The notes below the pieces were generated by a model. It saw only the letters and a list, made by a program, of their open reading frames with translations. It had not been told where the DNA came from and did not search any database. Positions 46,666-46,834 of a stretch of 64,000 bases of DNA are shown one piece after another (the first letter of the stretch is position 1; each line of letters starts with the position of its first letter). The position numbers and the translations under genes were made by a program. The stretch is from Bacteroidia bacterium. GTDB lineage: Bacteria; Bacteroidota; Bacteroidia; J057. The stretch is taken from contig JAWPMV010000001.1 of assembly GCA_033391075.1 (NCBI GenBank), positions 868,001-932,000 of the forward strand. Reading direction: 5' to 3'.

Positions 46666-46737
46666 ATGACTCATCAATCTGTATTTGTCCAAGACTCCAC
46701 ATCAATAGTGTCAATAAAGTTCTGTTGTTGTTGCTAA
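46666..46737 (+). CDS. Leader peptide ending in four cysteines
   Basis: A 23-codon frame (ATG 46666, TAA 46735-46737) encodes a peptide ending K-F-C-C-C-C, with the Cys codons TGT TGT TGT TGC at 46723-46734. The four cysteine codons sit in front of GTTGC-TAAG-GCAAC (46730-46743), a hairpin that a ribosome on these codons would prevent. The ATG overlaps the stop of a 4-codon upstream frame. Position, between the SAM riboswitch and metY, suggests a cysteine-sensing attenuator. Translation has not been shown. Confidence 0.6.
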   Translation: MTHQSVFVQDSTSIVSIKFCCCC

Positions 46738-46834
46738 GGCAACTTCGCAGAGAAGCATTTTTATAATTCTGTAAACCTATCAGCAGGTCCTAAAGCCATG
46801 GATTTGCCAACAAACAACCTATATAATATTTGCT

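Follow-up and report, generated by a model that had tools for sequence, protein, structure and literature searches.

A putative two-input regulator in front of metY in Bacteroidota: a SAM-I riboswitch and a leader frame that ends in cysteine codons

What is the role of a short open reading frame that lies between a SAM-I riboswitch and metY and ends in a run of cysteine codons? The question is raised by a locus of a Bacteroidia bacterium, found in a window of 64,000 nucleotides (the whole stretch of DNA that was analysed). The sequence-only reading had described a SAM-I aptamer, then a 23-codon frame ending in Cys-Cys-Cys-Cys-stop, then metY, and direct reading of the sequence confirms this arrangement. 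MetY fixes sulfide into homocysteine, and at this step SAM is the signal of the methionine end and Cys-tRNA the signal of the cysteine end. From a comparison of this leader with its relatives, we consider it probable that the metY leader combines two inputs, with a Cys-tRNA attenuator coupled to SAM-I.

The metY leader and a second copy in the same genome

The leader and its genes lie on the plus strand, preceded by a promoter-like pair, TTTG (46477-46480) and TATTTTTG (46500-46507), with a spacing of 19 nt. The SAM-I aptamer (RF00162, 46548-46644) matches the full model (1-108) with 56.7 bits against a gathering score of 44.4; at the gathering score SAM is the only Rfam family in the window, and no T-box was matched. 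At +10 after the aptamer, the conserved start position, an ATG opens the mini-frame MDYL-stop (46655-46669), whose TGA overlaps the ATG of the Cys leader frame (ATGA, 46666-46669), an overlap that would allow re-initiation at the Cys frame. The Cys frame, MTHQSVFVQDSTSIVSIKFCCCC, has 23 residues (46666-46737, with its ATG at 46666-46668 and its TAA at 46735-46737) and ends in the codons TGT TGT TGT TGC (46723-46734), the proposed sensor of Cys-tRNA charging. These codons can form a hairpin with the stretch 3' of the stop (46720-46757), a weak terminator candidate followed by five T residues (46758-46762), of which the MFE form spans 46720-46752 and the terminator-like form 46723-46757 (-7.8 kcal/mol, MFE fold). 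GCAAC (46739-46743) and CCAACAAACAACC (46807-46819), the latter complementary to the Cys codons and their possible long-range partner, lie where the earlier reading had placed them. The gene metY itself, for an O-acetylhomoserine sulfhydrylase (46835-48157; TIGR01326, 648 bits against a cut-off of 495), is followed by a metX-like homoserine O-acyltransferase gene (48244-49248), which scores 331.3 bits with NF001209 (cut-off 331) and 363 bits with TIGR01392, under the cut-off of 500. The two genes probably form one operon, in which the metX-like product would supply the substrate of MetY. Just 5' of the riboswitch, at 44635-46413, lies a fused two-domain ATPase of an oligopeptide/glutathione-type ABC transporter.

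The 9.49 Mb genome holds only two SAM-I matches, and the other one precedes a cysH operon. Twelve nt after this second aptamer comes a frame of 38 codons, of which the final seven specify Cys, and about 108 nt lie between it and the cysH open frame. The operon contains cysH, an O-succinylhomoserine-sulfhydrylase-like gene, a sulfite/nitrite-reductase-like gene (under every listed family cut-off) and a uroporphyrinogen methyltransferase. Four Cys codons plus a stop (TGYTGYTGYTGYTRR) occur five times in the genome, against two occurrences of a control pattern, and only two of these five sites belong to ATG-started frames, namely those 3' of the two SAM-I matches. The genome also encodes a CysK that passes its cut-off, next to a CysE-like protein that does not, and a homologue of 474 residues, as long as a cystathionine beta-synthase. 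The notion of MetY as the sole sulfide route in this genome is unsupported, since CysK is present above cut-off. In five genomes (G001, G002, G004, G005 and G008) CysE is matched weakly (E 1e-10 or worse), so that cysteine may there come through MetY.

Recurrence of the cysteine frame

Two samples of SAM-I loci were compared. The first came from 100 genomes, the organism's own and those of relatives, searched with RF00162. The second was drawn from named genomes and comprised the best 80 of at least 590 metY loci, 72 of them with a SAM-I at the gathering score. Some genomes are common to both samples, and after the removal of four duplicates the pooled set held 161 SAM-I loci. Genes were sorted by short sequence signatures, with an HMM check of representatives only. 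An ATG frame was counted as a Cys leader if it started between -45 and +80 from the aptamer end and had at least three Cys in its last 14 residues, thresholds that were fixed after a first look at the data.

Cys leaders are present at 68 of the 161 loci, a count that, like those below, is inflated by the relatedness of the surveyed loci and does not represent independent events. In the sample not chosen by metY, they were found in 11 of 13 metY loci (the window included), 0 of 47 metH loci and 0 of 9 CGS-type loci (Fisher 4e-11); other genes have one in 4 of 19 loci, two of them before cysH (L001 and L116, HMM-checked) and two before other genes (L143 and L158). The metY-chosen sample gives 48 of 65 for metY, 4 of 4 for metY operons with an OsmC-like first gene and 1 of 4 for the others, this one (L083) being a metY locus where the gene finder chose an earlier frame. 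By gene context, 63 of the 68 Cys frames lead into metY or OsmC-metY and two into cysH. Leaders of culturable relatives are among those collected, namely of Solitalea (L064 and L073), Pedobacter xixiisoli (L082), Chryseolinea serpens (L047) and Lewinella cohaerens (L053). By a loose count, the Cys run is absent from 19 of 78 metY loci. When the tails of frames in metY loci were searched for at least three identical residues, the sense strand gave Cys in 51 of 78 loci and any other residue in at most 2 of 78, and the antisense strand gave Cys runs in 0 of 78, with Thr the commonest residue (5 of 78). Related metY leaders thus strongly uphold the point on which the proposal of a leader peptide turned, that both the Cys run and its frame are conserved (68 loci; 11 of 13 for metY), and the link between SAM-I and a Cys frame appears nearly specific to genes of sulfide and sulfate assimilation.

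Two groups of loci carry other first genes. Four loci (L066, L081, L089 and L090) have SAM-I and a Cys leader before an OsmC-like gene (HMM check in L066), and this arrangement, in loci fetched for metY, suggests a sulfur or thiol role for the OsmC protein. At L158 and L024 SAM-I is followed by a frame with several Cys, before a receptor gene that we take from its sequence to be TonB/SusC-like, possibly an importer of a sulfur compound.

The promoter-like pair recurs as well. TTTG and TATTTTTG at a distance of 19 nt fit what we take to be the Bacteroidota -33/-7 consensus, TTTG...TAnnTTTG. TAnnTTTG occurs within 70 nt 5' of the aptamer in 55 of the 68 Cys leaders, and in 3 and 4 of the 68 in two stretches farther 5'; the last 65 nt ahead of the gene, where an internal promoter would be sought, have it in none of the 68. 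Because the motif is placed just 5' of the aptamer, the aptamer, frame and gene are probably on one transcript, which would probably start about 30 nt 5' of the aptamer.

In the last 12 residues of the 63 metY/OsmC leaders, Cys makes up 45% of positions against 2.3% in the bodies (20-fold) and Met 9.0% against 2.2% (4-fold). Within the tails of all 68 Cys leaders the residue after Met is most often Cys (48 of 83), and the enrichment of Met, for instance in L108, L089 and L105, may mean that Met-tRNA is sensed too. Cys is the last residue of the frame in 49 of the 68 leaders, whose Cys codons comprise 264 TGT and 146 TGC. Six members of the window's family have 24-41% identity to the window peptide, with Cys alone invariant; the K-F-C-C-C-C ending that had been expected was not borne out, as the Cys run alone is conserved and the bodies vary. 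Across 22 greedily chosen leader pairs, differences numbered 213, 190 and 321 at codon positions 1, 2 and 3, a mild third-position excess that is given little weight because many of the pairs align badly. No Pfam match was found for the two leader peptides scanned.

Of 198 genomes of the phylum searched for metY, 155 had a match, and from these 60 upstream stretches were taken, chosen for spread and then for one family, f76. In the window's class SAM-I was present at the gathering score in 10 of 14 stretches, five of these ten with a Cys leader. In f76, which belongs to another class of the phylum, SAM-I is present in 15 of 18, and a frame with a Cys/Met tail (...CMCMC...) lies 5' of the aptamer in 15 of these 15 (L207, L220-L228, L230-L233 and L236). 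The order is here Cys/Met leader, intrinsic terminator, SAM-I, a second terminator in most, and metY. Structure was analysed in 13 of these loci (L223 and L230, near copies of L220, were excluded): a strong terminator between leader and aptamer was found in 13 of 13, one between aptamer and gene in 11 of 13, and the sequence at the stop codon of the leader is predicted to form an antiterminator with the first terminator's 5' arm (mean z -2.6). As judged from these predicted folds, the f76 leader is a classical intrinsic-terminator attenuator in series with SAM-I. Another family, f77, has a Cys/Met leader without SAM-I at the gathering score in two of three loci (L199 and L238), and these leaders (...CMMCMCM...) have a terminator-like hairpin and T-run directly before metY. 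Among 25 loci of other families, 21 with SAM-I and one with SAM-I/IV, none has a frame with three Cys in its tail, so the Cys leader is not universal. In one genome (L195, 280-378, minus strand) a SAM-I/IV riboswitch (RF01725) takes the place of SAM-I before metY. That a Cys/Met leader beside SAM-I recurs before metY in two orders is, in our assessment, the strongest argument for a functional pairing.

Start codons, terminators and pairing

The start of the leader frame keeps a narrow distance from the aptamer. An ATG at +6 to +10 is found in 54 of the 68 Cys leaders (3.9 expected) and in 16 of the 19 metY leaders without a Cys run (1.2 expected); elsewhere the counts are 0 of 47 for metH, 1 of 9 for CGS and 3 of 18 for other genes. 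In 53 of the 54 Cys leaders this ATG is in frame with the Cys run. In the window the +10 ATG (46655) does not share the reading frame of the Cys codons, which are read from an ATG 11 nt farther on. In metY leaders of Algoriphagus and near relatives (L044, L046, L048, L051, L052 and L056, and further L059, L061, L084, L092 and L102) an ATG opens a frame at the same distance of 6-10 nt from the aptamer, but this frame has no Cys run.

Care must be taken in counting terminators, as a looser rule accepts the TGTTGTTG run itself and inflates the counts for Cys leaders; the following counts of intrinsic terminators rest on a strict T-run rule. Intrinsic terminators follow SAM-I in 24 of 47 metH loci (2.8 in shuffles), in 9 of 9 CGS loci (1.9 in shuffles) and in 8 of 19 metY leaders without a Cys run (against 1.7). 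Between the aptamer and the Cys run they were found in 2 of 68 Cys leaders against 2.7 in shuffles, which is no excess, and SAM-I therefore shows no intrinsic terminator of its own in leaders of the window's type. One reading, suggested by position, is that the start of the upstream open reading frame (uORF) would be the expression platform in the Cys leaders. The +6 to +10 spacing alone is no proof of a dispensable terminator, because metY leaders without a Cys run share the spacing yet have terminators.

Downstream of the frame, the stretch from stop to gene is more structured than shuffles in Bacteroidia-type leaders (mean z -1.23; 22 of 64 below -1.64). In the window this stretch is not unusually structured (z -1.01), and 46645-46860, behind the aptamer, folds no better than shuffles (z -0.55). 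Hairpins that start 24-50 nt after the stop are enriched (65 leaders), and terminators between stop and gene show only a slight enrichment in Bacteroidia-type Cys leaders (8 of 67 against 3.7). The Cys codons were also considered as the 5' arm of a terminator, a fold that is possible in the window and in L038 but is found in 20 of 64 leaders against 19.7 in shuffles, and this candidate was rejected. The earlier reading had further proposed that the Cys codons pair through GTTG with CAAC downstream, a proposal that holds for a subset of leaders: 20 of 59 leaders have a CAACA, complementary to the Cys codons, in the first 80 nt downstream of the stop, where 5.7 would be expected (mean z of the duplex, -0.66). 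In the window the duplex of the Cys codons with CCAACAAACAACC has -9.2 kcal/mol against -7.9 in shuffles (p = 0.26, not significant), and in an alignment (A1) of 15 related leaders no compensatory pairs were found for the pairing of Cys codons with CAACAA.

Mechanism, alternatives and relation to known systems

In the mechanism that we propose, the transcript carries, in an order that comparison supports, the SAM-I aptamer, a short frame starting beside the closing helix of the aptamer, a terminal Cys run and metY. A ribosome on the leader frame would probably gauge charged Cys-tRNA, and possibly Met-tRNA, by stalling or not at the terminal codons, and its position would probably decide how strongly metY or the cysH operon is expressed, with low cysteine raising expression. 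SAM may act through the leader frame, a step to which we give about an even chance. The SAM-locked P1, a few nt before the start codon, would bar ribosomes; the frame would stay untranslated and the gene off, and expression would therefore need both low SAM and low cysteine. The one observation that points to occlusion of the uORF start by P1 is the spacing. In the window's class the output could lie in transcription, with Rho or a weak hairpin ending it in the untranslated stretch, or else in how metY is initiated. The fuller proposal is that a terminator-less riboswitch licenses uORF translation, with SAM gating entry and the charging of Cys (plus Met) tRNA setting the stopping point, an arrangement that would recur in Bacteroidota and be reversed in order in a family of another class; this we hold tentatively, at a little short of an even chance. 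Because metY leaders without a Cys run keep both the ATG spacing and terminators (8 of 19), gating by SAM was rated lower and independent switches higher.

Alternatively, the leader may hold two independent switches in series, with SAM-I acting alone and the Cys leader separately 3' of it, its uORF start ungated by SAM. The f76 loci are built in this manner, with a leader and its terminator followed by SAM-I and its terminator (13 of 13 and 11 of 13), and the terminators of metY leaders without a Cys run (8 of 19 against 1.7) and the tandem T-box/SAM elements that a passage of PMC12452182 describes for Bacillota point the same way. Leaders of the window's type fit less well, with terminators between aptamer and Cys run in 2 of 68 against 2.7 in shuffles and the uORF start held at +6 to +10, and we regard independent switches as a serious but rather doubtful contender. 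Far less probable is a reading in which TGTTGTTGTTGC is repeated as a conserved, non-coding RNA element that pairs with CAACAACA, the frame being incidental. Such an element would account for CAACA after the stop in 20 of 59 leaders (5.7 expected) and for the pairing of Cys codons with CAACAA in the 15-leader alignment, but in 53 of 54 leaders an ATG at a fixed position is in frame with the run, interruptions of the run are whole codons (CCCKRCCC, CCMCICCPCCC), TGT and TGC are mixed (264:146), CAACA is absent from the 80 nt downstream of the stop in 39 of 59 leaders, and the tails of f76, such as CMCMC, differ in nucleotide sequence and are still Cys/Met.

A Cys-rich peptide could also act after its synthesis, by binding metals or thiols or by a sequence-triggered arrest of the nascent chain. 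Poly-Cys C-termini could bind metals, and some tails are mixtures of Met and Cys. However, the peptide bodies lack conservation (six family members are 24-41% identical to the window peptide), the last Cys stands at the stop in 49 of 68 leaders, the frames precede metY or OsmC-metY in 63 of 68 cases and cysH in two, and neither of the two peptides scanned had a Pfam match, all of which leaves an active peptide very improbable. Chance or an annotation artefact deserves almost no credence: a lone frame of 23 codons with four Cys would carry little weight, but the frame recurs in 68 loci with strong gene specificity. Chance or composition as its source is ruled out by this specificity together with the antisense and other-residue controls.

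The composite regulator that we favour resembles several known systems in part. Among the matches listed from the open-licence literature, judged by title and the start of the abstract, none couples a Cys leader to a SAM riboswitch. Cys-run leader peptides of actinobacteria are described, in the passages cited from PMC1262725, for the cys operon in Mycobacterium and Propionibacterium acnes and for cbs in Bifidobacterium; they have no conserved terminator, hence Rho was suggested. These leaders share the short frame, the Cys codons near the stop and the sulfur genes 3'. They differ in phylum and in being leaderless in M. smegmatis (Canestrari et al. 2020, as cited in passages of PMC13236596 and PMC9031893), and the same passages make no mention of a SAM riboswitch. 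In Rhodobacterales, uORFC-8-2 before cysS is alike in having Cys codons in a uORF and a proposed ribosome attenuation, whereas, as far as the cited section of PMC8632094 goes, it has two Cys codons, an intrinsic terminator, an aminoacyl-tRNA synthetase gene and a motif without a riboswitch. The SAM-I of the Xanthomonas met operon (PMC7270179) likewise joins SAM with a tRNA-charging signal, uncharged initiator tRNA, on one leader, but its expression platform binds tRNA directly, Met rather than Cys is concerned, and a leader peptide is not mentioned in the abstract. A tRNA signal and SAM also meet on sulfur genes in clostridial ubiG, with a Cys T-box and an S-box (PMC2940859), and in the Bacillota tandem T-box/SAM elements (PMC12452182); according to the passages cited, these use tRNA-binding T-boxes or an antisense RNA from an S-box promoter, with no translated leader. 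For Bacteroidota, leader peptides or short frames are mentioned in general terms for F. psychrophilum and B. thetaiotaomicron in parts of PMC9723704 and PMC7366714, and S-boxes are noted in Bacteroidetes/Chlorobi metagenomes in a passage of PMC2211319.

If true, the coupling of SAM-I to a Cys leader would be a natural RNA gate that joins a small-molecule aptamer to a translating ribosome within one leader, at the point where sulfide enters homocysteine. It would be a test case for a riboswitch that uses the start codon of a uORF as its expression platform. A function would also be predicted for dozens of short frames, and Bacteroidota would have a recurrent cysteine-responsive attenuator.
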